A DNA stretch of 64,000 bases, from contig JAAZMZ010000050.1 of assembly GCA_012798535.1 (NCBI GenBank), positions 1-64,000 of the forward strand, in the 5' to 3' direction. This DNA is from Leptolinea sp. Its GTDB lineage: Bacteria; Chloroflexota; Anaerolineae; Anaerolineales; Anaerolineaceae. How positions within the stretch are numbered: position 1 is the first letter of the stretch; every line of letters begins with the position of its first letter. The translations under genes were made by a program, and so were the position numbers. Below, piece after piece: positions 4,477 through 38,558 of the stretch. The notes under the pieces were generated by a model that worked only from the letters and a program-made list of their open reading frames with translations, did no database searches and was not told the DNA's origin.

Positions 4477-4486
4477 TGCTGCCTCC

Positions 4487-6484
4487 TTAACTTTCCGGAA
4501 TGACTTCTACCAGCGCCGCGCGGATCACTGTCCGCCATAAATATTCCCCGCTGGCTTCATCAAACCCCTGACAGGTGATCAATGTGATCCAGCTTCCTTC
4601 TTCATGGCGAAAAGCGCTGCGGTCATCCGGTGTGACGCGTTCGACGGAGCGAACACGGTATATATATGAATTTCCCCAGGCATGGATTTCGATGGGGTCG
4701 TCAAATTTCAGGCTGGATAGATTGGCAAAGGGCCCGGGTTTCCCGTTGGGAAGAGAGACATGAGCTGTGATCACTGAGTTGCCATCATACGTGGGAAAAG
4801 CAGTTCCCTGCAGATACCCGGCCTGATTCCATAACCAGGTCAAATCCCATCCTTTATTGCTGGGGAGCACTCCGACCACATCTGTTTGAACACGCAAGTT
4901 CGGAATCGACAGACGAATTCCGTTCATGTCCTGGTACTGTCGTTCTATGGGTTGTGGTTTTATGGCAGTTATCCGATTTGGTGCGAACCCGGTAGCCGGC
5001 ATGAAGAAATTACCGTCCACCTTCCATATCTCCGCTCCGATTTTTCCATCCGTTGCACTGAAGAAAAGAGTTCTATCAATCGCAGCAAAACTATGCGGAT
5101 TCGATGTCCGCCAACCACTGTACAGATCTGCCACGCGGATGGTGGTGTATTCTTCATATGGTGGTTCGCTCATATAAAGTTCCCGTCCATAGACGCCGTC
5201 ATCTGCGGTGAAGAAAAGTGTGGTACCGATCGCTGTCAATTGCCGGGGATCAGAAGCTCCCTTTCCTTCGCTGATGTCTGCAACAATGTTTGTGTGGTCG
5301 GCATCATAGGGAGGGACGCTTTTCCATAATTCTGTCCCGGCGATTCCCTCATTGGCGGTAAAGAAGAGAGTGGTGCCAACCGCTGTCAGATTGCGTGGAT
5401 TGGAACTTCCAAAACCGTCAAAGATATCATCCACAATGAATGTAGAGGTTGGCTCGTAGGGCGGCTTTGAGATGTATAACTCATTTCCGCTATAACCGAT
5501 ATTCCCTGAAAAGAACACATAGGAACCGATAGCGGTGATCCAATCCGGCTGAGTGTCATTGATGGTATAGATGAGCAGGTTCTCCGGTGGATCGCCGATG
5601 ATATCTGTCACCCGCACGGCTCCGCCGTAGGGCGGTTCCAGTTTATACAGTTCATGCCCCGATTCGCCATCATTGGCAGAAAAGAAAATCGTGTTATCCA
5701 CGAGGGTTAGATCATATACTTCCGCATCGCCATTTTTGGCGATATTCGTGCATTTAATGGCTGTCCCCGGGGTGTATTCCGGATCGCTTCGCCAGATTTC
5801 TGTTCCGGTGGAATCACCGGCGATATAGAACAGCATCCAGCCCAGACGGGTTAATTCGCGTGGATTTGATCCGTGGGCGCCCGGCCAGATATCAGCAACC
5901 AGATCAATGGACTGATAGGGAGGAGACGTGCGGAAAATCTCGCGGCCGTGCTGTCCATCATCTGCCGTGAAGAAAACAGCATTGCCGATCATCACAAAAT
6001 TGGCCGGATCAGAATCCCCGTTCTCGTTCAGATCGGCGACACGGCGGGTGGAAGAGGCGTTGTAAGGTGGTTCAGAAACCCACAATTCAATGCCGGCGTC
6101 ATCTTTTGCGCTGAAAAAGACCAGATTTCCAAATCCTTTGATGTATTTGACATCCGAACTGAGATAACCAGGGTTGATATCCTTTACCAGTTCGGCCTTT
6201 GTATAAGGGGAAGGAAGTTTCCAGAGCTCGCGGCCGTAATTCCCATCCACGGCGCTGAAGAACAGGGTAGTGCCAACAAAGGTGAGGTATTCCGGTGAAG
6301 AGCTGCTGGAGCCTTTCCAGAGATCTATCACATTCGCCGGAGGAGTGTCGCTATCCTTTACCATCGGCGGAGCTGCCGTGACGGTGTTCGCGGGTATGAA
6401 GGATGCCAGCAGCATTAACAGCACTAAATTGCAGAAGAGTCGTTTCTTCAGGGCAATGCGGGGTAATCTGATCATCTGTCTCAT
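4487..6484 (-). CDS. Secreted ELW-repeat protein with C-terminal sortase domain
   Basis: A 665-residue protein with a signal peptide (hydrophobic residues 18-30, likely cleavage after VTAA near 38). Residues 55-490 hold nine imperfect repeats of about 48 residues; the conserved core reads like GTTLFFTADDGVYGRELY followed by SEPPY, resembling the ELWxxDGT propeller-type repeats. After the repeats comes MPATG (495-499) and then a sortase fold (about 505-662) with the expected triad: His575 in TAHVSLPNG, Cys638 in TLITC and Arg651, the same Cys-to-Arg spacing of 13 as SrtA (C184-R197). There is no C-terminal membrane anchor. It lies between two adaptor genes; its ATGA start overlaps the upstream stop by four bases, so it is translated as part of the exporter operon. 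Sortase assignment is firm on motifs; the role of the repeats is unknown. Confidence 0.78.
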   Translation of the reverse strand: MRQMIRLPRIALKKRLFCNLVLLMLLASFIPANTVTAAPPMVKDSDTPPANVIDLWKGSSSSSPEYLTFVGTTLFFSAVDGNYGRELWKLPSPYTKAELVKDINPGYLSSDVKYIKGFGNLVFFSAKDDAGIELWVSEPPYNASSTRRVADLNENGDSDPANFVMIGNAVFFTADDGQHGREIFRTSPPYQSIDLVADIWPGAHGSNPRELTRLGWMLFYIAGDSTGTEIWRSDPEYTPGTAIKCTNIAKNGDAEVYDLTLVDNTIFFSANDGESGHELYKLEPPYGGAVRVTDIIGDPPENLLIYTINDTQPDWITAIGSYVFFSGNIGYSGNELYISKPPYEPTSTFIVDDIFDGFGSSNPRNLTAVGTTLFFTANEGIAGTELWKSVPPYDADHTNIVADISEGKGASDPRQLTAIGTTLFFTADDGVYGRELYMSEPPYEEYTTIRVADLYSGWRTSNPHSFAAIDRTLFFSATDGKIGAEIWKVDGNFFMPATGFAPNRITAIKPQPIERQYQDMNGIRLSIPNLRVQTDVVGVLPSNKGWDLTWLWNQAGYLQGTAFPTYDGNSVITAHVSLPNGKPGPFANLSSLKFDDPIEIHAWGNSYIYRVRSVERVTPDDRSAFRHEEGSWITLITCQGFDEASGEYLWRTVIRAALVEVIPES

Positions 6485-7887
6485 TTTCCCGCGCCCTGAG
6501 ATGCCATTACCTGGGGATTGGTCACCAGCGCATCGCCTTCATGCAGATCACCGGATTTCAATTCACTATACATATCTGATATTAAACCAAGTTCCACCGG
6601 TATTTGTTGGACTTTATTTTCACGAAAAACGTATACTGAGTATTCTTTCTTTTTGGCCTGTAATGCGCTATTGGGAATAAGGATGACATTTTCCACCTTT
6701 TCCACCTCGATGGATGAGGCGGCTGTCATTCCCGGTTTGATGGAAGCATCTGGATCCGTGATTTCGCAGGTTACTGTGTAGTAGATATTATCCTGATCAT
6801 CCTGGTTGATCTTACCGATCTCTGAAACAACTCCCTCGAAGGACTTTCCCGGTATGGCATCAAAAGAGAAAGTGACTGCCTTACCCGGTTTGATTTTGTT
6901 GATATCCACTTCTGAGACCGAAATATCCAGGAACATGTGTGAAGAATCGATCAGAGTGAGAGCTTTATCTCCCGATTTGACAACGTCGCCTTCAAGCAAT
7001 CGTGAATCGATGACGGTTGCTGCGATCGGTGCCGTAATTCTGGTGAGGTTGATCTGTGCCTGCAGGGCATCCACATTGGATTGTGCGGCGGCCAGATCGT
7101 CAGGATCGGGTTTATTTTTTACCCTGTCCCAATTTCTCCGTGCATCTGCCAGCTTCGATTCAGCCACTTTTAATTCTGTATCCGCGATCTTGATGTCTTC
7201 AGGTAAAGGTTTATTTTGTGCATACTGGAAATTCCACAGCGCCCAATCGTAATTCTTTCTGGCAAGGGAAAGCTGGGCGGTGATCTGCGCTCTGTTTACA
7301 TCATCTTCCGGTTGATCCTGGACAAAGGCAAAAACCTCTTCCATTTTTTTCAGGTTAGATTTTGCCTGAAGATAGGATGCTTCTGCCGCCATGAGATTTG
7401 TATCGCTGGCATTGCGTTGATTCATCAATTCCCGTTTGTCCCGGGCTTTATCAACCTCGATCTCGGCTTTTGCCAGGTCTTCTTTGGCCTGAGTACGCTT
7501 TTGATCTGAAATATTTAGATCATTTAGGGCTCTCTGTGCAGCAGGCAGTTCTTCAATGGCCTGCAAAATCGAAGATTCCAGTGAAGTCTGGTCCAATTCC
7601 ACAAGCACGTCACCGGCTTTAACCGTATCATTATTCTTGACGTGAATGTTGCCTATGATTCCTCCGGTCATCCAGTTGAGTGTGACAAGCTGGTTTGGCC
7701 GCACCTTGCCTGTGGATCCGACCCGAGTGGTCAATGTACCCCGGGTGACCGGGGTTGTGGTCACACCCTCGGGAAGCGGCGATCGAGAAGATTGACGATA
7801 CTTGTTAACAAAAAAAATACCGCCGGCAACAAGCAGCAAAAGTAGAAGAACGATGTAAACGCCAACCTTTAGTCTTTTTGATTTCAC
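6481..7887 (-). CDS. HlyD/MacA-family adaptor protein (first gene of operon)
   Basis: A 468-residue adaptor with a GTG start, an N-terminal membrane anchor (about residues 8-28), a lipoyl half (VKNNDTVKAGDVLVELDQTS), a long helical hairpin (about 105-275), the second lipoyl half (RITAPIAATVIDSRLLEGDV) and a C-terminal beta-barrel region with PGMTAASSIEVE. It is a clear paralogue of the other adaptor in the same operon, sharing the LNWMTGGI/LNWQTTGT and EVDINKIKPGK/EVDINSIKVGQ segments. It is the first gene of the operon and overlaps the sortase-fusion gene by four bases. Having two adaptors for one ATPase and one permease is unusual; they may form a mixed ring or serve different steps. Confidence 0.85.
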   Translation of the reverse strand: MKSKRLKVGVYIVLLLLLLVAGGIFFVNKYRQSSRSPLPEGVTTTPVTRGTLTTRVGSTGKVRPNQLVTLNWMTGGIIGNIHVKNNDTVKAGDVLVELDQTSLESSILQAIEELPAAQRALNDLNISDQKRTQAKEDLAKAEIEVDKARDKRELMNQRNASDTNLMAAEASYLQAKSNLKKMEEVFAFVQDQPEDDVNRAQITAQLSLARKNYDWALWNFQYAQNKPLPEDIKIADTELKVAESKLADARRNWDRVKNKPDPDDLAAAQSNVDALQAQINLTRITAPIAATVIDSRLLEGDVVKSGDKALTLIDSSHMFLDISVSEVDINKIKPGKAVTFSFDAIPGKSFEGVVSEIGKINQDDQDNIYYTVTCEITDPDASIKPGMTAASSIEVEKVENVILIPNSALQAKKKEYSVYVFRENKVQQIPVELGLISDMYSELKSGDLHEGDALVTNPQVMASQGAGK

Positions 7888-24471: not shown

Positions 24472-25440
24472 TTAATCGGATGAAATGAGAAAGTCCGCCG
24501 TCACATGATCTGTTATTAATACATTTATCCATTTGCCTTTTAAGGCAGCCAGAATGGCTTCGTGTTTATCTCTTCCCGCCGCCACGGCTACGGCTCTGTC
24601 GACTTGCTTCAACTGGTCCAATCCCATTGATACCACCCGGCTGTTGATGGCGTGATCGACCTGTTTCCCATTTGCATCAAAAAAATGCAGCAAAATATTG
24701 CCAGTTGCTCCAACCCCCCTTAAGATCTTCAACTCTTCTTGAGAGAAGATATTACCGCTGGAGGTCAACAACCGTGCCGGCTGTAGGGGACCAATTCCGA
24801 CCAGCGCCATCGTTATATCGCCGAACATTTCCGTGGTCTCTTTGACATATTTATCATTCATGATGACGTTGTAGGCTGCCTGCGATCCGACGATTCCGGG
24901 AGCCGGTAGGAAGTAGGGGGTTCCATTAACAAGGCTGGCCAGTCTGCCTGTGAGGCGGTTGGCATGTATTTCCGCGGTTGGATTCCCCACTCCACCGAGA
25001 ATTTGAACGATTTTTACCCCTGATTTACCCGGAACCTGCTGCATCATATCCACCAGAGCGACCAGAGTCTCGCTCCAGGACGATATGCCAACAACATCAT
25101 TATTCTTGATTACGGTTTCCACATAATGCGCAGCTGCCGAACCGATTTCGCGCAACAGGATGCGTTGATTGTCGTCCTCACTTTCATTAGTGCAATCGGC
25201 GACGATCGCCTCCTTAAGGCCGAACTTTTGGATTAGTTGTTCCTCCAATTCGGTGTTAACCCCTTTAGGGATGTTAACGCTGATACGAATGATGCCTTCT
25301 TTGCGTGCGCTGTTTATCAAGCGAGAGACAGTGGCCTGTGAAATTCCAAGCCGATCTGCGATTTCACTCTGGCGCATATCATTTTCAAAATACAGACGTG
25401 CTGCTTTGGTCATTAACCGGAGTTCGTTGATAGTTTCCAT
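24472..25440 (-). CDS. SorC-family transcriptional regulator
   Basis: A 322-residue regulator with an N-terminal helix-turn-helix (about 20-45, QSEIADRLGISQATVSRLI) and a C-terminal sugar-binding domain of the SorC/DeoR-of-Bacillus type (VKIVQILGGVGNPTAEIHAN; LVGIGPLQP; GRDKHEAILAALKGKWINVL). Family members sense phosphorylated sugars or polyols and repress neighbouring catabolic operons. The gene is divergent from the binding-protein/dehydrogenase/kinase operon, its likely target. ATG 25440 is chosen by family length; the frame is open to 25617 but that part is unlike the family. A TTGAAA-16-TATATA promoter lies about 90 bases upstream. Confidence 0.9.
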   Translation of the reverse strand: METINELRLMTKAARLYFENDMRQSEIADRLGISQATVSRLINSARKEGIIRISVNIPKGVNTELEEQLIQKFGLKEAIVADCTNESEDDNQRILLREIGSAAAHYVETVIKNNDVVGISSWSETLVALVDMMQQVPGKSGVKIVQILGGVGNPTAEIHANRLTGRLASLVNGTPYFLPAPGIVGSQAAYNVIMNDKYVKETTEMFGDITMALVGIGPLQPARLLTSSGNIFSQEELKILRGVGATGNILLHFFDANGKQVDHAINSRVVSMGLDQLKQVDRAVAVAAGRDKHEAILAALKGKWINVLITDHVTADFLISSD

Positions 25441-25528
25441 ATCCGATCCATCAAGGAGAAAAAAGATTTGTCTTAATACATTGTCTGGTAGTAAAAATCC
25501 ACTCAGCGAAAAATCTAAATCAAATCTG

Positions 25529-25556
25529 TATATACCATCATTTGCATAAATTTCAA
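25529..25556 (-). promoter_or_regulatory. Promoter candidate for the SorC-family regulator
   Basis: On the minus strand, TTGAAA (25556-25551) is followed after 16 bases by TATATA (25534-25529). Transcription would begin near 25522, leaving about 80 bases before the ATG at 25440. Confidence 0.4.
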
Positions 25557-25563
25557 CACATGA

Positions 25564-25634
25564 ATAATTATACACATCTATTGACTCCATGCAAGGCAGT
25601 ATCCATAATGAATGCATTCTGATTGCATAATTAT
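25564..25634 (+). promoter_or_regulatory. Promoter candidate flanked by two ATAATTAT palindromes
   Basis: TTGACT (25581-25586), 17 bases, CATAAT (25604-25609): five of six matches in each hexamer. ATAATTAT occurs at 25564-25571 and again at 25627-25634, 63 bases apart, which is about six helical turns. This placement suits a tetrameric SorC-type regulator binding on both sides of the promoter. It reads toward the transporter operon. The palindromes are short and AT-rich, so chance is possible. Confidence 0.35.
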
Positions 25635-26002: not shown

Positions 26003-27049
26003 ATGAAAAAATCGTTATTAGTGTCGGTGTCAGTTTTAGTGCTGTTTTCGATGTTGATGGGGTTTGCTCCGATGGCCTCCGCGCCGGTCGTGCCTGCCAA
26101 GACCGATAAAGCCATCACGATTGTGATCATCCCCAAATTGGTCCATGAATTCTACAATCTGGTACTTGACGGAGCCAATAAGGCCGTGAAAGAACTGGCC
26201 GCAGATGGAAAACAGGTAAACATTATCTGGAGCGCGCCGACCACAGCCGACAGCGCCGAACAGGCGAACAAGCTCGAAGCCGCCATTGCCATGAAACCGG
26301 ATGCCATTGCCATCTCCGTCATCGACGGTGAGCTGGTCAAACCCCTTATGGAACAGGCAAAAGCCCAGGGGATCAAGGTTATTGCTTTCGATACCGATTT
26401 TGAAGGTTCCCCGGCTGATTCCTTCGTTGGTTGCAGCCTCGATGCGCAAAAAGAGTCTGGCCGCCAGGCTGCCGATCTCCTCGTGAAATTGATCGGAAAA
26501 GACAAGGGAAAAATCGCCATGCTGACCGGCTCTCCGGACGCTGAAAACCACAAACTGTTCTCCGGTGGTTTCGCCGAAAGAATGGCGGCAAAATATCCCA
26601 ATTTCCAGATTGTTACCAAACAGGCTGACAATGATGATAAAGAAAAAGCCACGAGCTTGACCGAAAGCATCCTGGCCCAGTATCCTGACATCGACGGTAT
26701 CTTTGGTGGAGATGGTTCCGCCGGTACCGGCGCCGCTGTCGCCGTGAAATCCGCTGTTGAAGCCGGGCACGTCAAAGCCAATCAGGTCAAGATTGTTGAA
26801 TACGTTCTCATGAACGATTCAAAGCGCGCCATGGAAGAAGGGTATGTTCAGGGTCTTGTGGATTACCCCCCGTACCTGATCGGATACTATGTAACCATGT
26901 CAACCGCAGCCTTCTTCTTTGACGGCATTCCTCTACAGGATGTTCCGTTGGTGTTTGGAACTGTGACCAAAGACAACATGGCAAACTACCTGGACGAATA
27001 CGCAGCTGCGCGTGTCAAAGAAGGCATTGAATACTGGAAGAAGAAATAA
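26003..27049 (+). CDS. Ribose-type ABC transporter substrate-binding protein
   Basis: A 348-residue exported protein with a signal peptide ending ASA (about residue 27). The mature part is a periplasmic-binding-protein type 1 fold of the RbsB family (Peripla_BP_4): IVIIPKLVHEFYNLVLDGA, then KPDAIAISVIDGELVKPLM, KVIAFDTDFEGS and DIDGIFGGDGSAGTGAAVAV. Such proteins bind sugars, polyols or autoinducer-2. The sequence does not identify the ligand. GAGGTG precedes the ATG by five bases. It is the first gene of an eight-gene operon; a perfect stem-loop separates it from the ATPase gene, which often leads to higher levels of the binding protein. Confidence 0.9.
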   Translation: MKKSLLVSVSVLVLFSMLMGFAPMASAPVVPAKTDKAITIVIIPKLVHEFYNLVLDGANKAVKELAADGKQVNIIWSAPTTADSAEQANKLEAAIAMKPDAIAISVIDGELVKPLMEQAKAQGIKVIAFDTDFEGSPADSFVGCSLDAQKESGRQAADLLVKLIGKDKGKIAMLTGSPDAENHKLFSGGFAERMAAKYPNFQIVTKQADNDDKEKATSLTESILAQYPDIDGIFGGDGSAGTGAAVAVKSAVEAGHVKANQVKIVEYVLMNDSKRAMEEGYVQGLVDYPPYLIGYYVTMSTAAFFFDGIPLQDVPLVFGTVTKDNMANYLDEYAAARVKEGIEYWKKK

Positions 27050-27104: not shown

Positions 27105-27141
27105 GCCGATACCATCTGCCAAGGGAGTAGATGGTATCGGC
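27105..27141 (+). repeat. Perfect 13-bp inverted repeat between binding-protein and ATPase genes
   Basis: GCCGATACCATCT (27105-27117) and AGATGGTATCGGC (27129-27141) are exact reverse complements around an 11-base loop. No T-run follows, so this is more likely an mRNA-stabilising or partial attenuation hairpin than a full terminator. It lies 56 bases after the binding-protein stop, and its right arm covers a possible ATG at 27131, so the ATPase start must lie downstream. Confidence 0.75.
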
Positions 27142-27181
27142 AAACAAAAAGATAACAAAGCCTGGAAGGAATTATCCACAA

Positions 27182-28672
27182 ATGGCGATTCCAAAACTTG
27201 AAATAAAAGGGATAAGCAAATCTTTTCCTGGTGTAAGAGCACTGATCGATGTCGATTTTGATTTGAATAATGGTGAAATTCATTCACTGGTTGGAGAAAA
27301 TGGTGCAGGAAAAAGCACCCTGATCAATGTGATCTCAGGGCAATTGAAACCTGAAAAAGGCGAAATCCTGCTGAATGGCGAAAAGGTCATTTTTAATGGT
27401 CCGGATGATGCTCTGGCACATGGGATTGGTCTGGTTCCTCAGGAATTAAATCTGATTCCTCTGCTTTCTGTCGCGGAGAATATATTTCTGGGGGTCAAGA
27501 AGATTAAACCGACATTTCCCTATGATATTGACTGGAAGGCAATAAACACACAGGCAGAAAACACTCTTGAAGCCTTGGGTGTTAAACTCGATGTCCAAGC
27601 TCCTGTAGGTACCATGAGCGTGGCGAACCAGCAACTGGTGCAGATAGCGCGAGCAATTGTATTGGGTGCTGATCTGCTCATTTTCGACGAACCTACCGCC
27701 TGTTTGACTATTAACGAAACTGAACGCCTGCTTAATTTGATTCAACAGTTCCGTGATGAAGGCAGAGCGATTATCTTCGTTTCTCACCATATGGACGAGG
27801 TGATCAAAATATCGAATCGCATTTCCATCATGCGCGACGGAATGATGATAGAGACCCTTGAACACGACGATTTCAGTTTCCAGAGAATGATCAAGGGAAT
27901 GGTGGGTAAGGAAGTAGAACAGAATCGAATCCTCCGAAAGAATGTTGATACTGCACCACTTCTTAAGGTATCTGGTCTGACACGTAAGAATGAGTTTTAC
28001 GACATCAGTTTTGATGTAAAAAAGGGTGAGATATTTGGAATTGCCGGCCTGGTCGGCGCAGGTAGAACAGAACTGGTAAGCAGCATATTTGGTGATCGCA
28101 AATTGGATGCCGGTACGGTTATCCTGGACGACAAAGTCATCAAAATCTCCAATCCTAAACAATCCATCGATCTGGGGATTGGTTATTTGCCGGAGGAGCG
28201 GCGAAATCTCGGCATATTGCCAAGTTTATCGATTTGTGAAAACCTGACGATTGTTTCCATTCAGAGATTATTCCGGCTGCTACCTATTGACCGTAAAAAA
28301 GAAAACGAGATCGTAAGGAACTATGTGCAAAAATTCCGCATCAAGCTTGCGGATACCGATGATTTCATCACCAAATTGTCGGGAGGCAATCAACAGAAGG
28401 TCATCCTCTCCCGGTGGATGGAAGTCGGTTCGAAGTTGTTGATCCTTGATGAGCCAACTCGAGGTATTGACGTGCTGGCCAAGGAAGAGATCCATCACTT
28501 GATGAGGGATTGTTCTGATGCCGGATTATCCATACTTGTTGTTTCTTCTGAAATGGAAGAGTTGATCAATATTTGCAGCCGCATTCTGATCATGCATGAA
28601 GGAAGAAGCAAAGGCATTGTTAATGCCAGTGAGATGAATCCAGAAAAAATTCTGAATATCGCACTGAGTTAA
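27182..28672 (+). CDS. Ribose-type ABC transporter ATPase (RbsA/MglA-like, two NBDs)
   Basis: A 496-residue ATPase with two nucleotide-binding halves. The first has an intact Walker A (GENGAGKST) and a Walker B (LLIFDEPTACLT). The second has the degenerate Walker A GLVGAGRTE usual for RbsA/MglA, with the signature LSGGNQQKVILSRWM and LLILDEPTRGIDV. The ATG at 27182 fits the family start (MAIPKLEIKGISKSFPGV); an upstream ATG at 27131 lies inside the hairpin. It drives the single permease encoded next. Confidence 0.9.
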   Translation: MAIPKLEIKGISKSFPGVRALIDVDFDLNNGEIHSLVGENGAGKSTLINVISGQLKPEKGEILLNGEKVIFNGPDDALAHGIGLVPQELNLIPLLSVAENIFLGVKKIKPTFPYDIDWKAINTQAENTLEALGVKLDVQAPVGTMSVANQQLVQIARAIVLGADLLIFDEPTACLTINETERLLNLIQQFRDEGRAIIFVSHHMDEVIKISNRISIMRDGMMIETLEHDDFSFQRMIKGMVGKEVEQNRILRKNVDTAPLLKVSGLTRKNEFYDISFDVKKGEIFGIAGLVGAGRTELVSSIFGDRKLDAGTVILDDKVIKISNPKQSIDLGIGYLPEERRNLGILPSLSICENLTIVSIQRLFRLLPIDRKKENEIVRNYVQKFRIKLADTDDFITKLSGGNQQKVILSRWMEVGSKLLILDEPTRGIDVLAKEEIHHLMRDCSDAGLSILVVSSEMEELINICSRILIMHEGRSKGIVNASEMNPEKILNIALS

Positions 28673-28699
28673 TCAGGTAGATTGTCGGAGGAATACGTA

Positions 28700-29698
28700 A
28701 TGAGTAATGAGACATTGGCAGGCAATATAAAACACTTTTCAAGATCGCGGTTGTTTTCCAATATCGCTCGATCAACAACAGCCTTTATTGCGCTGTTCAT
28801 CCTTGCATTTGGCGTCTTTCTTTCAATTTATTCCGAAAATTTCCTGACCTCCTACAATATCGGCATCATTCTTCGGCAGATGTCATTCTTCGGTATTGCC
28901 GCGCTGGGACAAACACTGGTACTGATCATCGGTGGAATTGATCTGTCTGTTGGATCAACAGCCGGTCTTTGTGGGATCATGTTCGCCTATTTTATGGTCA
29001 GAATGGGTATCAACCCTGTGATCAGTATTTTCCTAGCTTTGTTTATTGGCGGTTTGATCGGATACATCAATGGTTTGATCATAACAAAATTCAGGCTGGG
29101 ACCCTTTATTGTCACCCTGGGGATCAGCGGCATTTGCAGTGGTTTGATACTGGTCATTACGGAAGGGTCCACAATCTCCGGGATAAAAGGTAATGTGCTG
29201 TTCTTGGGTCAGGGGATGTTATCAGTTGTACCTGTTCCCATCCTGATCTTTGTGTTCATTGCTCTGGTATTAACCTACATATTGAAACGCACACCCTTTG
29301 GTAGAGAACTGTATGCCATTGGTGGGAATGTAGCCGCCGCCAGGCTGGTCGGGATCAAGACCGAACGCCGCATTCGCACGGTTTATCTGCTTTCCGGTGT
29401 TCTGGCTGCGTTTGGTGGTGTGTTGATGGCCTGCCGATACAACTCGGGCCAACCGACCATTGGCACATCCTGGGTGATGTCTTCCATCACGGCAGCAGTC
29501 ATTGGAGGCACCTCCATGCTGGGCGGTGTGGGCAGTATGTTCGGTACTATTGTCGGTACATTATTGATGACCGAACTCAGCAATTCAATTGTTGTTTTGA
29601 ACGTCTCACAATACTGGGAGCAGGTTATGACCGGCGGTGTGGTTCTGATTGCGGTCACTATCGATGCCATCCGCTCGCTTACGAGGAACACGAACTAA
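28700..29698 (+). CDS. Ribose-type ABC transporter permease (RbsC-like)
   Basis: A 332-residue membrane protein with eight to nine hydrophobic segments. Family motifs include LGQTLVLIIGGIDLSVGSTAGL and TPFGRELYAIGGNVAAARLVGI, the coupling-helix segment of BPD_transp_2 permeases, and GVLMACRYNSGQPTIG. A GGAGG site lies nine bases before the ATG at 28700. Only one permease gene is present, so it probably acts as a homodimer, as in the ribose system. Confidence 0.92.
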   Translation: MSNETLAGNIKHFSRSRLFSNIARSTTAFIALFILAFGVFLSIYSENFLTSYNIGIILRQMSFFGIAALGQTLVLIIGGIDLSVGSTAGLCGIMFAYFMVRMGINPVISIFLALFIGGLIGYINGLIITKFRLGPFIVTLGISGICSGLILVITEGSTISGIKGNVLFLGQGMLSVVPVPILIFVFIALVLTYILKRTPFGRELYAIGGNVAAARLVGIKTERRIRTVYLLSGVLAAFGGVLMACRYNSGQPTIGTSWVMSSITAAVIGGTSMLGGVGSMFGTIVGTLLMTELSNSIVVLNVSQYWEQVMTGGVVLIAVTIDAIRSLTRNTN

Positions 29699-29783
29699 TT
29701 TTAAAGGTAGATGAAGGCTGTGAATGACCGTTGTTTTCTATAAACAATGGTGGTTCAAAGTACCTAAATTTCAGGAGATCGCA

Positions 29784-30809
29784 ATGAATAAATCAGATAT
29801 CACCAGTGAGCAAATACTGGATATGTACCAGATCATGGTGAGAATTCGTGAATTTGAAAATCAGGCTATCGAACTGGCAAAAATGAATCTGACCCGGGCG
29901 GCCATTCACACATACAACGGAGAAGAAGCTATTGCGACCGGTGTGTGCGCCTGTTTGAAAGAGAATGACTATATTACGTCCACCCATCGCGGTCACGGCC
30001 ATTGCATTGCCAAAGGCGCTGATATGCGAAAAATGTATGCCGAACTGATGGGACGCGAAACCGGATACTGCAAGGGGCGTGGCGGATCCATGCATATCGC
30101 CGATGTCAAGATTGGTATTCTGGGAGCCAACGGAATTGTGGCCGGTGGCATTCCCATTTCGGTGGGTGCAGCTTTTGCCATCAAGCTGCAGAAGACTGAC
30201 AGCATCGTTGTCAGTTTCTTCGGAGATGGCGCGTCAAATGAAGGAGCATTTCATGAAGCTTTGAACATGGCCGCCGTAAAAAGGCTGCCGGTGGCTTTTG
30301 TCTGTGAGAACAATCATTATGGAATATCCATGAATGTTTCGCAGTCGACCAGCGTGGAAAGAATTTCGGATCGCGCAAAGGCCTATGGAATTAAAGGTTT
30401 GACCATCGATGGCAATGATGTGGTTGAAGTGTATACCAGCTTTGGCAAAATTGCCGAAGAGATCAGAAATGGCAGCGGACCGGTGCTTATTGAAATGGAA
30501 ACTTACCGCTTGAGCGGGCACTACTTTGGCGATAACGAGAATTATCGTTCAAAAGACGAAGTGGCTTCCTGGCGCGCCAAGGACCCCATTCAGAATTGTC
30601 GTGAGCAATTGATTAACCAGTATAGATGCCCAACCGAGTTATTGGACAACATCATCAAAGAAGAACGTGCTCATGTAATGGAAGCCTGTGAAACTGCTAA
30701 AAGCGATCCTGAGCCATCTCCCGCGGAATTATCCAAGGATCTATACGATCCCGATTTTAAGAAGATCGAATGGAGAGTCCGCACCAGCAATTCGAGCAGT
30801 GTTTTATAG
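29784..30809 (+). CDS. Thiamine-diphosphate dehydrogenase E1 alpha subunit (pyruvate/acetoin type)
   Basis: A 341-residue subunit of a 2-oxoacid or acetoin dehydrogenase complex. The thiamine-diphosphate motif runs from GDGASNEGAFHEALN to CENNHYG (GDG-x-NN pattern). STHRGHGHCIAKGADMRKMY and GRGGSMHI are the E1 alpha segments that contact substrate and beta subunit. The start at 29784 has CAGGAG about seven bases upstream; the frame is open 20 codons earlier without a ribosome site. The following gene is E1 beta, 18 bases away. Acetoin-type and pyruvate-type enzymes are close relatives, and sequence reading alone cannot decide between them. Confidence 0.9.
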   Translation: MNKSDITSEQILDMYQIMVRIREFENQAIELAKMNLTRAAIHTYNGEEAIATGVCACLKENDYITSTHRGHGHCIAKGADMRKMYAELMGRETGYCKGRGGSMHIADVKIGILGANGIVAGGIPISVGAAFAIKLQKTDSIVVSFFGDGASNEGAFHEALNMAAVKRLPVAFVCENNHYGISMNVSQSTSVERISDRAKAYGIKGLTIDGNDVVEVYTSFGKIAEEIRNGSGPVLIEMETYRLSGHYFGDNENYRSKDEVASWRAKDPIQNCREQLINQYRCPTELLDNIIKEERAHVMEACETAKSDPEPSPAELSKDLYDPDFKKIEWRVRTSNSSSVL

Positions 30810-30827: not shown

Positions 30828-31796
30828 ATGAGAAAGATCTCTATGAGAGAAGCGGTCAATGAAGCCCTTCAAATTGCTTTCAACAGTGATGACTCAGTAT
30901 TCACAATGGGGGAAGATATTGCCGTCTATGGCGGACAACTACGATGTTCTTATAACCTTGTTGAGAACTACGGTCCTGAAAGAGTGATTGACACTCCTAT
31001 CTCTGAGACGGCGCTGGTAGGAGCAGGTGTGGGTGCCTCATTGCTGGGCATGCGTCCAATTATTGAAATCTCATACATAGATTTCATTGGCGTTTGCTTC
31101 GATCAGATCCTCAACCAGGCAGCCAAAATCCGTTATATCTACGGGGGATCCGTCAATTTGCCGCTGGTGATTCGGACGCAATGTGGAGCCGGACTTGGAA
31201 ACGGCGCGCAGCATTCACAATCGCTCGAAGCAATGCTGGCGCATATCCCTGGTATTCGGGTTGTAATGCCCTCGAATGCCTATGACGCCAAAGGCCTGCT
31301 GCTTCGTGCGATCCGAGATAACAATCCGGTCATCTTCATCGAGCATAAGGCGTTATATAAAGTCAAATGTGAAGTCCCTGAAGAGCCGTACGAATGTGAT
31401 TATTCCTGCGATATCAAACGAGCGGGAAAAGATGTGACCATCGTTTCGTATTCCGCGATGGTGAATCAGGCGCTTCTGGCAGCCGAACAACTGGCCGCCG
31501 AAGGAATCGATGCCGAGGTTATTGACGTACGCTCTCTCGAACCATTTGACGCGGATACGATCGTCAAATCGGCAAAAAAGACCGGACGGGTTGTGGTGGT
31601 CCATGAAGCTTGCAAAAAGGGCGGATTCGGCGCCGAAATCGCAGCGACGGTTCAAGAAATGGCTTTTGACAGTCTGAAGAAACCGGTCCGCCGCGTGGGC
31701 GCACCGTTCCTGCCTGTTCCCTTTGCACCCATTCTGGAGAAAAGTTTTCTACCTGATAAAGACGATGTTCTGGATGCCGTGCATGCCTGTTTCTAG
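30828..31796 (+). CDS. Thiamine-diphosphate dehydrogenase E1 beta subunit
   Basis: A 322-residue partner of the preceding E1 alpha gene; together they form the alpha2-beta2 E1 that decarboxylates or cleaves the substrate and passes the acyl group to lipoyl-lysine. Recognisable are TMGEDIAVYGG, VIDTPISETALVGAGVGASLLGMRP (TPP-binding half), GNGAQHSQSLEAMLAHIPGI and the C-terminal transketolase domain (EVIDVRSLEPFDADTIVKS). Length is normal. AGGAAAGG precedes the ATG. Confidence 0.92.
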   Translation: MRKISMREAVNEALQIAFNSDDSVFTMGEDIAVYGGQLRCSYNLVENYGPERVIDTPISETALVGAGVGASLLGMRPIIEISYIDFIGVCFDQILNQAAKIRYIYGGSVNLPLVIRTQCGAGLGNGAQHSQSLEAMLAHIPGIRVVMPSNAYDAKGLLLRAIRDNNPVIFIEHKALYKVKCEVPEEPYECDYSCDIKRAGKDVTIVSYSAMVNQALLAAEQLAAEGIDAEVIDVRSLEPFDADTIVKSAKKTGRVVVVHEACKKGGFGAEIAATVQEMAFDSLKKPVRRVGAPFLPVPFAPILEKSFLPDKDDVLDAVHACF

Positions 31797-31832
31797 GTAA
31801 AAGTTCACTCGAGAAATGAGGAGATTAATATC

Positions 31833-32075
31833 ATGAAAAAAGAAGTCATAATGCCAAAAATTGGACTGGACATGGACGAGGGTACGATCAGTTCATGGAT
31901 TGTCAAGGTTGGCGACAGGGTAAAGGAAGGCGATACCCTGGTCGAGATCGAGACCGACAAAGCCGTCACCGAAGTACAATCCACCATGAATGGAACCCTG
32001 GTTGAGATCGTGGCTAAAGAAGGTGATACGGTCGCGATCACCAAGACAATTGCCTGGATTGAAACTGATGACTGA
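31833..32075 (+). CDS. Stand-alone lipoyl carrier domain
   Basis: An 80-residue protein that consists only of a biotinyl/lipoyl domain. The modified lysine is Lys43 in IETDKAVTEV, the usual DK(A/V) turn. In ordinary complexes this domain is the N-terminus of E2; here it ends in a stop codon, and the catalytic E2 gene starts eight bases before that stop. ATGAGGAG lies 12-19 bases upstream of the ATG (31833). A free carrier resembles the glycine-cleavage H protein in concept but not in sequence. Confidence 0.88.
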   Translation: MKKEVIMPKIGLDMDEGTISSWIVKVGDRVKEGDTLVEIETDKAVTEVQSTMNGTLVEIVAKEGDTVAITKTIAWIETDD

Positions 32076-32718
32076 CCAGGTCCAAAAGCTAACGTCATTA
32101 CAGAAATCCATGGCTCGGCAGATGACGAAGAGTCTGGAAGCCCCCCAGTTCCAGCTCGCCACCGACGTGGACTGCACCCGGCTTCTCGAATTCAAAAAAC
32201 GTTCACCTTTCAAACCTTCCGTCACCACCATTCTTGCGAAACTGGTTGCGGATGAACTGGTGAAGTTCCCATTATTGAATTCATCATGGAATGAGGATGC
32301 CATCATATTGCATGAAGAAGTCAACCTGGGAATTGCGGTGGATACAAAAAGAGGTCTGCTGGTTCCCGTGATTCGAGATGCCAGCCAGAAAGACCTGCAG
32401 GAAATCCACAGAGGCATGGAACTGATCAAAGAGAAGCGCGAAAGCGGGAAGTTCAGCATGGACGACCTTGCGGATGCCACGTTCACAATTTCGAATCTCG
32501 GAGCATTCAACATTTCTTTCTTTTCGGCGATCGTAAATATGCCTCAGGTTGGTATTCTGGCGGTCTCAAAAATGACGGAAATGCCGGTGGTGCGATTCGG
32601 GCAAATCACCACGGCCAGCGTTATGAGGTTATGCTTAAGTATGGATCACCGGGTGGTGGATGGAGCATACGGTTCACGATTTATGTCAGAACTTGCGGCT
32701 TCCATTGAAAATCTTTAA
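32068..32718 (+). CDS. Catalytic core of dihydrolipoamide acyltransferase (E2) without lipoyl or subunit-binding domain
   Basis: A 216-residue 2-oxoacid dehydrogenase acyltransferase core that moves the acyl group from lipoamide to CoA. It begins almost at the catalytic domain (SLQKSMARQMTKSLEAPQ) and has the active-site motif DHRVVDG (His194, Asp198) plus ATFTISNLGAFNISFFSAI. The usual peripheral-subunit-binding domain and flexible linkers are missing. The ATG at 32068 overlaps the lipoyl-carrier stop (ATGACTGA), without a ribosome site of its own, pointing to translational coupling. No E3 (dihydrolipoamide dehydrogenase) gene lies in the window. Confidence 0.88.
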   Translation: MTDQVQKLTSLQKSMARQMTKSLEAPQFQLATDVDCTRLLEFKKRSPFKPSVTTILAKLVADELVKFPLLNSSWNEDAIILHEEVNLGIAVDTKRGLLVPVIRDASQKDLQEIHRGMELIKEKRESGKFSMDDLADATFTISNLGAFNISFFSAIVNMPQVGILAVSKMTEMPVVRFGQITTASVMRLCLSMDHRVVDGAYGSRFMSELAASIENL

Positions 32719-32756
32719 CGAGTTGGCTGAACATACAGTTGGAAAGGAACCTGAAA

Positions 32757-34232
32757 ATGGCAGATTATATTCTGGCTGTTGATCAAAGTACGACGACTAC
32801 CAAGGCGATCATTTTTGATAAACAGGCGCGCCTGATAGGCCGATATGATGTGAATCACCAGCAGATCTATCCCCGAAAAGGCTGGGTGGAACATGATCCG
32901 GTGGAGATTTACCATAACCTGATCGAAGCCGTTCGCCAGGTTCTCAAGAAAACCGGAATAAAAACCACAGACATCATCGCGCTCACCGTGACCAATCAGC
33001 GCGAGACAACCGTGATGTGGACGCCGGATGGAAAACCGGCCTATAACGCGGTGGTCTGGCAGTGCGCCCGGGGTGAGAGCATTGTGCGGCGGCCGGAGAT
33101 TGCTTCGGAAAGAGACTACATCACCACCGCGACAGGGCTTCAACTATCCCCCTATTTCTCCGCCGCCAAAGCCGCCTGGATTAAGGAGAATTGCGGCGTC
33201 TCCGGAAAACTTATGTTCGGCACCATGGATAGCTGGGTGATCTGGAATTTAACCGGGAAGCATGTCACCGATTATTCCAATGCGTCTCGTACACAATTGT
33301 TCAATATTCATAAACTGTGCTGGGATGAGATGATCATCCAATTGTTCGGCCTGCAAGATGTCGCCTTCCCCGAAGTGCATTCTTCGAATGAGGTGTTTGG
33401 AACCACCACGGTCGGTGGAATTTTCGAGACACCCATTCCGGTCGCGGGGGATATGGGCGATTCGCACGGCGCTTTATTCGCCCAGCAATGCTGGGAGACA
33501 GGCACCGGAAAATGCACTTTCGGCACCGGCGGATCGGTGATGATGAATATCGGCACCCGGCCACTCATGTCAAAGAATCGGATCGTCACATCCATAGCCT
33601 GGGGACTATCCGGTGTGGTTGAATATGTGTTTGAAGGCGTCATCATCTGCATGGGCGATACGATCAAGTGGCTGATTAATGAAGCCGGATTGATCAAAAA
33701 CAGTGCGGAATCACAGACCTTTTCCGAAATGGTGGATTCGTCCAATGGCGTCTATATGGTTCCGGCCTTCGATGGACTGGGCGCTCCCTACTGGGAATCC
33801 GAACTGAGCGCCATGATCTGCGGGCTGCACCGAAATTCCAATAAATACCATATTGTACGTGCCGGCGTGGAATCGATCGCCTACCAGATCCGCGACATTG
33901 TTGACCCGATGTTGAAAGATGCCGGTATCCCGTTGAAGGAACTGGGTGTGGACGGCGGGCCGACAAACAACGCCTTCCTGATGCAGTTCACCGCCGATAT
34001 TCTGAACACCCGGCTGGTCAGGAACAGCGTCGAAGAACTCTCCGCCCTGGGCGCGGCTTACGCGGGCGGCATGGCGGTCGGATTCTGGAAAGACCGCCGG
34101 GAACTCACTGCCCTGAAAAGGGTGACCGATGATGACTATGTCAGAAGGATGCCTGATGTGGAAGCTGAAAACCTGTACGACGGTTGGAAGAACGCCGTGA
34201 ATATGCTTATCCAGGGTTCGAAGAATTCGTAG
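32757..34232 (+). CDS. Glycerol-kinase-like FGGY carbohydrate kinase
   Basis: A 491-residue FGGY kinase closest by eye to glycerol kinase: VDQSTTTTKAIIFDK (DQGTT-like phosphate loop with Gly replaced by Ser), GWVEHDPVEIY, TVTNQRETTVMW, FGTMDSWVIWNLTGK, TDYSNASRTQLFNI and a C-terminal LGVDGGPTNNAFLMQ. It should phosphorylate glycerol or a related polyol or ketose. Its place as the last gene of a SorC-controlled, ribose-type importer operon suggests a substrate other than free glycerol. AAGGA lies nine bases before the ATG at 32757. A strong terminator follows. Confidence 0.82.
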   Translation: MADYILAVDQSTTTTKAIIFDKQARLIGRYDVNHQQIYPRKGWVEHDPVEIYHNLIEAVRQVLKKTGIKTTDIIALTVTNQRETTVMWTPDGKPAYNAVVWQCARGESIVRRPEIASERDYITTATGLQLSPYFSAAKAAWIKENCGVSGKLMFGTMDSWVIWNLTGKHVTDYSNASRTQLFNIHKLCWDEMIIQLFGLQDVAFPEVHSSNEVFGTTTVGGIFETPIPVAGDMGDSHGALFAQQCWETGTGKCTFGTGGSVMMNIGTRPLMSKNRIVTSIAWGLSGVVEYVFEGVIICMGDTIKWLINEAGLIKNSAESQTFSEMVDSSNGVYMVPAFDGLGAPYWESELSAMICGLHRNSNKYHIVRAGVESIAYQIRDIVDPMLKDAGIPLKELGVDGGPTNNAFLMQFTADILNTRLVRNSVEELSALGAAYAGGMAVGFWKDRRELTALKRVTDDDYVRRMPDVEAENLYDGWKNAVNMLIQGSKNS

Positions 34233-34298: not shown

Positions 34299-34368
34299 AA
34301 ATCCAATTGATGTGAGTATCGCAGATAGGTATAAAGATCCGATATCTTCAGTATGACAAACTTCTCTG

Positions 34369-34442
34369 TGGGCGGAACAGGACTCGAACCTGCGACCACA
34401 TCGGTGTAAGCGATGTGCTCTAACCAACTGAGCTACCCGCCC
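34369..34442 (-). tRNA. tRNA-Val (anticodon TAC)
   Basis: On the minus strand 74 bases fold into a standard cloverleaf: acceptor GGGCGGG paired with the 3' end (last pair G-T), D-arm GCTCAGTTGGTTAGAGC, anticodon stem CATCG/CGATG around loop CTTACAC, and T-arm GGTTCGAGTCC. The anticodon TAC reads valine codons. The CCA end is not encoded. It stands alone with its own TATAAT. Confidence 0.95.
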
Positions 34443-36265: not shown

Positions 36266-37405
36266 CTAGGCTTCAAATGATGAAAGGAGTCTTTGACAAT
36301 TTTCCACCAGATCCGGTCCAGCCTTATGCAATCCACCGCCCATCAGGTAGATCATATCGTTGTCGTATACCTTTTTCATTTCAGGTATTGTCTGCATAGT
36401 AATACCACCGCCCGCCACCGGAAAAGCAGGTTTGATCTTCCCCATCGAAACACTGGTCCCTGCTACAACAGCCAGGCAGTCTTCTCTGGTGTTGGCGAAG
36501 CGGCTGCCGAAATTTATGAAAATGCTCATATCCGCGCCGGCCAGTCTGGCTATTTGCCCGAACCAGGCATAGGTCGAAAAACCGGCTGTTGGTGAAACCA
36601 CATAGCAACCGGAGAAAGATGGATGGATCATGATGGGTAGATCAAGGGAATCATCTTCCGCCAACATGCGTACAGCATCCCAGCCGGTATGCGCCGGTAA
36701 GACCATCAGGCCGCGGCAGCCAATCTGTCTGGCATAATGTGCATTCTCCAGCAATTCATCCGCGCGGCCGGTGATGTTGGGCAGAAAGATGCTTTTTCGC
36801 CCGGTTTCGTGATTGGCTCTTTCAACCGCTTCCTGATTCCGTGAAATCCGTTCTTTGAATTGGGAGAACGCCTGGTTAGAAATACCGTGGTCGTCCTTGA
36901 TCAGGTCGATACCACCTCTGGCTACCTGATAACCCATATCGGCGAGTTCTTTATACGATAGTCCCATTGGTTTCAGAGCCGTGCAAAAGAGGGGACGGGT
37001 GGGAACACCCAGTAGTTCGCGCACGCCGGCGCGTCCGAAACGCGGACCGGAGAATCGCGTCGCGAGAGTGGGAAATAGATGGATGCGCTCTACTCGAATT
37101 CCCGGCATCAGGCTGATATTTCCCATCACCACATTTAGAAATTGGGCGATGGTGAAAGCCGTGATCTCGATGGCATAACTGATGATTACATGATAATGGT
37201 CTTGACCAACCGGCGTAATCTCTTCGATTTTGCCGACCACCTGGTCTTTGATCTCACCGTCCGGGAGAAGCTCATAGGGGAATTCAACTGTGTCCTCAAC
37301 AATGATCGCGGCGGCCAGTTGGTCAACATCGGCACGGGATCCAAAGAGACTGTATTCGACCGAAAAGCGCTCACCCGATAAGTTCAATCTTTGATTACCC
37401 TGCAT
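36266..37405 (-). CDS. RuBisCO-like protein (form IV), probable methionine-salvage enzyme
   Basis: A 379-residue member of the RuBisCO superfamily. The start at 37405 has AGGAG six bases upstream; the frame is open further but without a signal. Relative to true RuBisCO, Lys170-Asp171-Asp172 of the carbamate/metal motif are kept but the next residue is His173 (KDDH instead of KDDE). Lys145 is kept in TALKPMGLS where RuBisCO has KPK, so the second catalytic lysine is lost, and His261 stands in MIHPSF. GGGI (332-335) and GGGLH (356-360) form the phosphate loops. This is a form IV protein that cannot fix CO2; its neighbour mtnA points to an enolase or isomerase step on methylthioribulose-phosphate-type compounds. 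Confidence 0.87.
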   Translation of the reverse strand: MQGNQRLNLSGERFSVEYSLFGSRADVDQLAAAIIVEDTVEFPYELLPDGEIKDQVVGKIEEITPVGQDHYHVIISYAIEITAFTIAQFLNVVMGNISLMPGIRVERIHLFPTLATRFSGPRFGRAGVRELLGVPTRPLFCTALKPMGLSYKELADMGYQVARGGIDLIKDDHGISNQAFSQFKERISRNQEAVERANHETGRKSIFLPNITGRADELLENAHYARQIGCRGLMVLPAHTGWDAVRMLAEDDSLDLPIMIHPSFSGCYVVSPTAGFSTYAWFGQIARLAGADMSIFINFGSRFANTREDCLAVVAGTSVSMGKIKPAFPVAGGGITMQTIPEMKKVYDNDMIYLMGGGLHKAGPDLVENCQRLLSSFEA

Positions 37406-37436
37406 GAAATACTCCTGACCTGCGTAAACTACCAGG

Positions 37437-38558
37437 TTAAATATTTGAAAACTGCATCCGGCCTGTGGCTTTCTTACTGAATATTTCAACTAATGAAGGC
37501 TGGAATGGCGGGCGGGCTATGCCGTATTCTGTAATGATCGCCGTTATGAATTTGTTCTCCGTTACATCGAAGGCAGGATTAAAGACGTTCACATCTTTGG
37601 GTGCCATTGGCCTGGCATACCATTTATCGGTCACTTCTTCCGGTTTTCGCAGTTCGATGTGGATATCTTTCCCGGTCGGGCAATCCATATCGATGGTCGA
37701 TGTAGGGGCGCAAACATAGAAGGGAATACCATAATTCTTTGCGAGTATGGCCACACCCAGGGTCCCGATCTTATTAGCCGTATCTCCATTGGCTGCCACC
37801 CGATCACAGCCAACCAGCACAGCCTGCACCCATCCATTTGCCATCACAGTGGCCGCCATGTTGTCGCAAATCAGGGTGACATCCACACCGGCTCTATTCA
37901 GCTCGAAAGCTGTCAGGCGGGCGCCCTGTAGTAAAGGGCGGGTTTCATCGGCGAAGACCTTGAAGTTATAACCTCTTTCAGTTCCCAGGTAGATTGGAGC
38001 AGTGGCGGTACCATATTTGGCTGTTGCCAGTTGACCGGCGTTGCAATGAGTAAGGAGCCCGTCATTCGGACGCAGCAATGATAGGCCGTACTCACCTATA
38101 GATTTGCTCACCCGGATATCTTCTGCTTTGATCTCTTCCGCTTCTTTGAGCAGCAATTCCTTGATCTCGGATATGGATCTGCTGCGATTATTCCTAGCGC
38201 AGGCCTCCATCCGGTCCAATGCCCAGAAGAGATTAACGGCCGTAGGGCGCGATGAAGCCAGATACTCCTTGATCTTTTTTAATTCCTTATAAAAGGAATT
38301 AAAATCACAGGCGGCACTGCTTTTCAGCCCGAGATACATCCCATAGGCTGCCGCAATACCGATGGCGGGCGCACCCCGCACACGCAGTTCAGATATTGCT
38401 TCCCAGATTTCCTCTCGGGTTTTAAGGTGCAAGTAGGTAAATTCGTTGGGCAGCAGAGTCTGGTCGATGATCACCAGTGCGTCATTCCTGTCATCCAATT
38501 CAACGGTTTCAAAGTCCAGTGCTTTTTTGGTATCCATCCGTATTGAAGAATCCTTCAT
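37437..38558 (-). CDS. mtnA: S-methyl-5-thioribose-1-phosphate isomerase
   Basis: Isomerises methylthioribose 1-phosphate to the ribulose form in methionine salvage; relatives act on ribose 1,5-bisphosphate or 5-deoxyribose 1-phosphate. The 373-residue protein has the family's RVRGAPAIGIAAAYGMYLGL, the catalytic-cysteine motif LLTHCNAGQLAT, VGCDRVAANGDTANKIGT and FYVCAPTSTIDMD. Those four segments separate MtnA from eIF2B-type subunits. It opens the operon, with the RuBisCO-like gene starting 31 bases on. The ATG at 38558 is preceded by GGGG; an ATG seven codons later is possible. Confidence 0.93.
   Translation of the reverse strand: MKDSSIRMDTKKALDFETVELDDRNDALVIIDQTLLPNEFTYLHLKTREEIWEAISELRVRGAPAIGIAAAYGMYLGLKSSAACDFNSFYKELKKIKEYLASSRPTAVNLFWALDRMEACARNNRSRSISEIKELLLKEAEEIKAEDIRVSKSIGEYGLSLLRPNDGLLTHCNAGQLATAKYGTATAPIYLGTERGYNFKVFADETRPLLQGARLTAFELNRAGVDVTLICDNMAATVMANGWVQAVLVGCDRVAANGDTANKIGTLGVAILAKNYGIPFYVCAPTSTIDMDCPTGKDIHIELRKPEEVTDKWYARPMAPKDVNVFNPAFDVTENKFITAIITEYGIARPPFQPSLVEIFSKKATGRMQFSNI

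Follow-up and report, generated by a model that had tools for sequence, protein, structure and literature searches.

An operon in Leptolinea sp. encodes an E2 acyltransferase as two proteins, a free lipoyl carrier and a catalytic core, and neither contains the peripheral-subunit-binding domain. The locus lies within a 64,000-nucleotide stretch of DNA, the whole of which we refer to as the window. The E1alpha and E1beta genes adjoin the two E2 parts, and we think it somewhat more probable than otherwise that together these genes constitute a working system resembling 2-oxoacid or acetoin dehydrogenases, with a split E2, a mobile carrier, a lone core and an E3 that is encoded elsewhere, within an operon for sugar or polyol uptake. 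Because the same split is present in other bacteria and in archaea, we regard it as a genuine, if little-noticed, variant of a familiar enzyme machine.

Structure of the split E2 locus

The features that define the split are as follows, with positions given in the window:

31819-31823, + strand, AGGAG, probable ribosome-binding site of the carrier gene, read in the sequence
31833-32075, + strand, free lipoyl carrier gene, 80 aa (PF00364, 76.2 bits)
32068-32718, + strand, E2 acyltransferase core gene, 216 aa, without lipoyl and binding domains (PF00198, 228.7 bits)
32068-32075, + strand, 8-base overlap of core start and carrier stop, ATGACTGA, read in the sequence
32644-32664, + strand, codons of the presumed catalytic motif DHRVVDG, core residues 193-199, read in the sequence and in an alignment

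The first-pass annotation of this DNA had described an 80-residue lipoyl open reading frame (ORF) that ends in a stop, with an overlapping ATG opening a 216-residue core, and its coordinates are confirmed: the carrier ORF ends with the TGA at 32073-32075, and the core begins at the ATG at 32068 in a different frame. PF00364 matches carrier residues 3-75 over its cut-off, covering profile positions 1-72 of 73, and PF00198 matches core residues 3-215 against a cut-off of 23 bits, covering positions 4-226 of 232. The lipoyl lysine of the carrier is Lys43, located in the turn within the sequence ETDKA (codon 31959-31961), and the DHRVVDG of the core, an instance of the DHxxxDG signature that we take to be the E2 catalytic motif, is invariant across an alignment of eight. 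A clear AGGAG is found upstream of the carrier and no clear one upstream of the core, which, together with the overlap of the genes, suggests that the core may be translated by re-initiation behind the carrier.

Approximately seven residues separate the edges of the PF00364 and PF00198 domains, and there is therefore no space in which a linker, or the binding domain with its 36 positions, could fit. No match to PF02817 (E3_binding) was obtained at E<=1 in the carrier, core, E1alpha or E1beta, while the same search detected the genome's two fused E2s at 59.5 and 52.5 bits as a positive control. Likewise, PF00364 had no match in the core at E<=1, the lipoyl domain being located on the separate ORF. 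Across the window's own genome, PF02817 produced two matches, both in fused E2s, and both here and in the related genome G013 it occurs exclusively within long frames that also carry an E2 core. A purpose-built binding-domain profile, run over the window's frames of 40 aa or longer, found no free binding domain. Because the training set of this profile was 11 sequences drawn from the same loci, its matches to 65 of 66 fused frames (duplicate loci counted) are partly circular; the Pfam binding-domain tests are independent of it. The earlier claim that the peripheral-subunit-binding domain is absent is thus borne out, whereas the claim that a classical E2-centred complex is impossible narrows to one about the carrier and core alone, from which no classical tethered complex can be made because the binding domain is missing. 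The annotation further proposed transfer by a diffusing carrier; stable contacts made without this domain, or use of the genome's two fused E2s, would be alternatives.

The split is shared with a related genome

Among 61 genomes, comprising the window's own and 60 relatives, the closest match beyond the window is in G013, which belongs to another genus of the same family, with 47% identity in a 243-aa open frame. Here too the E2 is split, with a carrier at 6667-6909 of locus L043 and a 222-aa core starting from the ATG at 6902, and the overlap is again eight bases long, ATGAATGA as compared to ATGACTGA in the window. Between the two loci the carriers are 63% identical, the cores 46%, E1alpha 58% and E1beta 74%. 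An orthologue with one intact E2 gene, which the first-pass annotation had named as evidence against the split, was looked for, and the near orthologue proved to be split as well. For surveys with the core and with E1beta, 400 genomes were drawn from the order and, separately, 400 from the phylum, and the two draws overlap. The core clade is restricted to the window's genome and G013 in both draws (428.8 and 451.1 bits), the next-best genomes scoring 190.3 and 191.4 bits. At a limit of 1e-112, the same two genomes alone pass with the E1beta query in the order, and in the phylum they are joined by G410 (54% identity). No intact E2 orthologue was found in the two 400-genome draws, a comparison that the E2 of G410 stands outside. 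A scan of genome contigs yielded eight distant loci with no near orthologue among them, and a search of viral contigs found nothing.

The split E2 is real and not the product of a sequencing error, because G013 is split in the same way, again with the 8-base overlap, and chance is dismissed because carrier and core each match a full family and G013 repeats their arrangement. Some circumstances do speak for a sequencing or assembly error, or for the decaying pseudogene of an intact E2: the window is from a 95-contig assembly with 5.33% contamination, and the core of a related split operon in Aminobacter is truly broken before the motif. Set against these are the identical split and overlap in G013, the same gene order in complete isolate replicons, the lack of any binding-domain match among frames of 40 aa or longer in the window, and the match of carrier and core to whole families, so that error or decay is exceedingly improbable. 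Frameshift or decay was rejected as a candidate on the strength of the G013 orthologue and the isolate replicons.

Operon and genomic surroundings

The genes that accompany the split E2 are the following:

24472-25617, - strand, divergent transcriptional regulator, DeoR/LsrR-like, start codon uncertain (NF053881 233 bits, NF011947 147.6 bits, both below cut-offs)
26003-27049, + strand, substrate-binding protein of a sugar-type ABC importer (best NCBIfam RhaS, LsrB, below cut-off)
27131-28672, + strand, ABC importer ATPase with two ATPase halves, arabinose/xylose/ribose type (NF008442 487.6 bits, below cut-off)
28682-29698, + strand, ABC importer permease, ribose type (NF007067 204.6 bits, below cut-off)
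29784-30809, + strand, E1alpha, ThDP-dependent dehydrogenase (PF00676 281.5 bits; open from the ATG at 29724, start uncertain)
30828-31796, + strand, E1beta (NF006667 355.6 bits, above the cut-off of 321)
32757-34232, + strand, FGGY kinase, glycerol-kinase subfamily (NF000756 563.8 bits, above the cut-off of 498)

The two E1 genes next to the E2 parts were identified by Pfam (PF00676, PF02779 and PF02780). The FGGY kinase lies 38 bases behind the core, with its ORF open from the TTG at 32739, and scores 541.6 bits with the equivalog model TIGR01311, below the cut-off of 590.35. Among NCBIfam models, the carrier, core and E1alpha all fall below cut-offs, and E1beta and the kinase alone pass a subfamily model. 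The best full-length NCBIfam matches of the carrier are E2s; it matches the acetoin dehydrogenase E2 equivalog NF011457 at 88.4 bits against 307 and in the N-terminal part only, and the core has no match to this model. Promoter and terminator scans gave no more hits than in shuffles. A tRNA-Val (tac) lies on the opposite strand a short way past the kinase gene, at 34368-34442 (-). Overlapping MtnA-like and RuBisCO-like genes at 36266-38558 (-) are convergent with the split-E2 operon.

In G013, the same gene run also includes genes for a 2-hydroxyacid dehydrogenase, for a different FGGY kinase and, directly before E1alpha, for a RuBisCO-like protein. The RuBisCO-like proteins near the two loci are 32% identical and the FGGY kinases approximately 21% identical, and the common neighbours therefore do not settle the substrate.

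The core and its oligomeric state

AlphaFold2 predicts the core with confidence (pLDDT 88.6, pTM 0.86), and the model aligns over 195 of 216 residues with the solved E2 core 6zzn (Z 28.8, rmsd 1.7); it also shares the fold of chloramphenicol acetyltransferase, which ranked 50 in the structure search. In the OdhA E2 trimer, neighbours exchange the N-terminal strand, and a C-terminal 3-10 helix joins E2 trimers, as described in the accessible part of that report (PMC10415282). The N-terminal strand corresponds to residues 4-7 of the core model, at lower confidence. The 3-10 helix has no clear counterpart in the core, where the motif is followed by 17 residues, the median for 62 fused cores being 22. 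A hydrophobic C-terminal end is present in one of 19 split cores and in 47 of 62 fused cores, a comparison made at the level of sequence among related rows and for a feature chosen after the tails had been seen. The core is likely a lone homotrimer, because its tail is short and, to judge by sequence, has no hydrophobic end of the kind seen in most of the fused E2s sampled.

E3, lipoylation and fused E2s elsewhere in the genome

The operon contains no E3, and the genome as a whole contains one, located beside a putative secA on contig C53 (584.2 bits against a cut-off of 408.8). The genome has one LplA-type lipoate ligase and no LipA over the cut-off, and lipoylation must therefore rest on salvage or on an unrecognised route. 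Lipoate may be salvaged; the organism is possibly a lipoate auxotroph, or possibly has an alternative lipoyl synthase. A 261-aa ORF on contig C82 (L052, 5003-5788) matches the C-terminal third of PF00198 alone, at 52.5 bits.

The genome also has two fused E2s in which lipoyl, binding and core domains are joined, each behind its own E1 genes, and the split parts could in principle borrow them, either with the core mixing into their particles or with their binding domains recruiting E1 and E3. This is improbable given that the core appears to be without the C-terminal segment that usually links trimers and is only ~36-37% identical to the two fused E2s, and that PF02817 is absent from Phaeobacter and Halobaculum plasmids with split operons, a search that covered the plasmids and not the chromosomes.

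Recurrence in other bacteria and in archaea

We ran tblastn on a plasmid collection and read the annotation beneath the matches. The order E1alpha, E1beta, "lipoyl domain-containing protein" and "2-oxo acid dehydrogenase subunit E2" (226-267 aa) is found in complete replicons. It occurs in the haloarchaea Halobaculum limi, H. roseum, H. lipolyticum and Natrialba magadii and also in Phaeobacter, Gemmobacter, Paracoccus seriniphilus, Roseibium and Sphingomonas, such that splits are found in isolates of haloarchaea and alphaproteobacteria. Eighteen distinct plasmid regions comprise 11 with carrier and core, one lone core (Sphingobium) and six fused E2s, numbers that are not a frequency, the regions having been chosen for a short annotated gene or a high-ranking match. 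All 14 loci that have both a carrier and a core retain the lipoyl lysine, and 19 of the 20 split cores retain DHxxxDG. In Aminobacter, E1beta and the carrier are followed by a core truncated before DHxxxDG; this truncated core (L106, 5956-6630, plasmid of Aminobacter niigataensis) has transposase genes nearby and appears to be decaying. An annotated lipoate-protein ligase gene lies directly behind the core at L100 3507-4205 (Phaeobacter inhibens plasmid), and hypothetical genes of similar size lie behind the core in Gemmobacter, Paracoccus seriniphilus and Roseibium.

The Shinella cluster consists of E1alpha, E1beta, an 80-aa carrier, a glycerol-3-phosphate-dehydrogenase-like gene, an aldolase and the core, along with a sugar-type importer, FGGY kinases, a sugar-binding regulator and lipA. 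This setting resembles that of the window, with a core that is just 34% identical. This locus (L104, 6879-12513, plasmid of Shinella sp. WSC3-e), where the dehydrogenase-like and aldolase genes part carrier and core within a sugar/polyol cluster, may hint at the substrate.

Within the window's order, G046 has a further set of E1alpha, E1beta, free carrier and core (L051). The core of this set (4429-5133) belongs to a second group of lone cores of 231-234 aa, along with L045 4781-5479, L046 4756-5457, L047 4905-5603, L048 4964-5668 and L055 42-737. At L045 and L046, two genes that read from sequence as amidohydrolase-like flank the core, with no carrier seen. The Sphingobium core (L109, 5998-6693, plasmid of Sphingobium sp. 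TomMM15) is annotated as a hypothetical protein and also has no carrier in sight, with E1alpha and E1beta genes 4 kb off on the other strand. In total, six lone cores (L045, L046, L047, L048, L055 and L109) have no free carrier in the stretch examined.

Stand-alone E2-like acyltransferases act in tetronate biosynthesis. Taken with the related lone cores that adjoin amidohydrolases and with the fold that the core has in common with chloramphenicol acetyltransferase (rank 50), they are what would be expected if the core passed the acyl group to an acceptor other than CoA, or if the carrier served another job. We consider this quite improbable for the window, where the catalytic motif and the full E2 domain are kept and where E1alpha, E1beta and the carrier are adjacent.

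Evolutionary origin

A quick tree was built from 56 cores, 20 split and 36 fused, in which the split rows include the lone cores without a carrier and the broken Aminobacter core. In this tree, the window and G013 cores pair with support of 100, the split or fused label needs four changes, of which at least three are forced by strongly supported branches, and the haloarchaeal splits are placed among fused haloarchaeal E2s. A single clade of all split cores was tried and is rejected (AU p 4.2e-5). Smaller groupings are compatible with the data, namely the window clade with the second lone-core group of the order (AU p 0.87) and the window clade with Shinella (AU p 0.82). Because one clade is rejected, changes are forced and the haloarchaeal splits fall among fused E2s, the state as reconstructed from these sequences has changed more than once, by fission or by fusion.

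Proposed mechanism

In the mechanism that we propose, E1alpha-E1beta would cleave the substrate with ThDP and reductively acylate the lipoyl-lysine of the 80-aa carrier, which as a free protein would then bring the acyl group to the small E2 core, probably a lone homotrimer. The core would hand the group to CoA, and the reduced carrier would be re-oxidised by the genome's E3, encoded elsewhere. Such a carrier would act like the glycine-cleavage H-protein rather than like an E2 arm, and would presumably be lipoylated by the LplA-type ligase of the genome. We infer that the system is active and that its carrier diffuses freely, and its role would be in the catabolism of an imported, phosphorylated polyol or sugar. 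Isolated lipoyl domains are E1 substrates, according to the available portion of PMC6270654, and therefore a free-carrier cycle from E1 to the core to E3 is chemically sound. Counting against this reading, isolated lipoyl domains bind E1 with low affinity, for which tethering is thought to compensate, as stated in the accessible text of PMC8421416. The lack of an E3 in the operon and of a LipA over the cut-off also counts against it, as do the two fused E2s, which could take part.

A rival reading is that E1, carrier and core would form a defined complex through direct non-covalent contacts that take the place of the missing binding domain, with the carrier docked. In both the window and G013, the genes for carrier and core remain adjacent and overlapping, as expected of partners, and there is a precedent in OdhA, whose E1 and E2 domains lie in one hexamer without the usual binding domain, as far as the accessible part of PMC10415282 describes it. 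However, Pfam shows no added domain on E1alpha, E1beta, the carrier or the core, and two other genes part carrier and core in Shinella; we regard a docked complex as rather unlikely.

Returning to the free carrier, a broader proposal is that the split systems are an untethered 2-oxoacid-dehydrogenase-like class, made up of E1, a diffusing carrier and a trimeric core, that evolved repeatedly in bacteria and archaea, and that the FGGY-linked members may cleave a phosphorylated keto-polyol into acyl-CoA and a sugar-phosphate aldehyde. FGGY kinases are located beside the split systems in the window, G013 and Shinella, and sugar-type importers in the window and Shinella. We know of no example of a phosphorylated keto-polyol being cleaved directly to these products, and we offer the proposal as a speculative one that is on balance doubtful.

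Comparison with known systems

Textbooks explain the size and shape of 2-oxoacid dehydrogenase complexes by substrate channelling on a tethered swinging arm. A natural separation of arm and core, without a binding domain and occurring more than once, provides a direct test of what the tether buys, with small separable parts (80 aa and ~220 aa) for reconstitution. In addition, split operons flag substrates that are perhaps other than pyruvate and so point to unknown catabolic routes.

Automatic annotation at NCBI already names both the carrier and the core proteins, and older work on Haloferax may mention lone lipoyl proteins. A survey of archaeal lipoylation recognises single-domain lipoyl proteins as a class, and the accessible part of its text notes no link to a split E2 (PMC3904984). 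We found no description in the open literature searched of the combination of E1, free carrier and lone E2 core. Each element has precedents, in free lipoyl carriers (GcvH, LbpA), in lipoyl domains that have been relocated and in trimeric E2s, and it is their combination as a class that seems to be undescribed.

The canonical E2 of 2-oxoacid and acetoin dehydrogenases has the same lipoyl and catalytic domain families, with E1alpha and E1beta adjacent. In contrast to its lipoyl, subunit-binding and catalytic domains in one chain, there are two proteins here, with no subunit-binding domain, no linker, a shorter C-terminus and no E3 gene in the operon. GcvH is likewise a small, free lipoyl carrier that serves several separate enzymes, and in this respect the carrier would work like it; however, the carrier is not GcvH by sequence (PF01597, 21.8 bits, below the cut-off of 22.2), and its partners are E1 and E2. 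In addition to the actinobacterial enzymes, an engineered Thermoplasma E2 trimer is reportedly another trimeric core. Actinobacterial AceF has a trimeric E2 core, and the core here is probably a lone trimer too, but the accessible account attributes the actinobacterial trimers to a C-terminal insertion (PMC10415282), whereas the core in this operon has a short C-terminus and also lacks lipoyl and binding domains. LbpA of sulfur oxidation is also a single lipoyl domain, with a dedicated ligase gene nearby as in Phaeobacter, but in the available part of its description it is GcvH-like and occurs with hdr-like genes (PMC6067878), while the carrier here is E2-lipoyl-like and occurs with E1 and an E2 core. 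Finally, lipoyl domains relocated to E3 or E1 also leave the E2 core apart from its lipoyl domain; in those cases, as the accessible part of the report has it, the domain has moved onto another subunit (PMC7873978), whereas here it is free.
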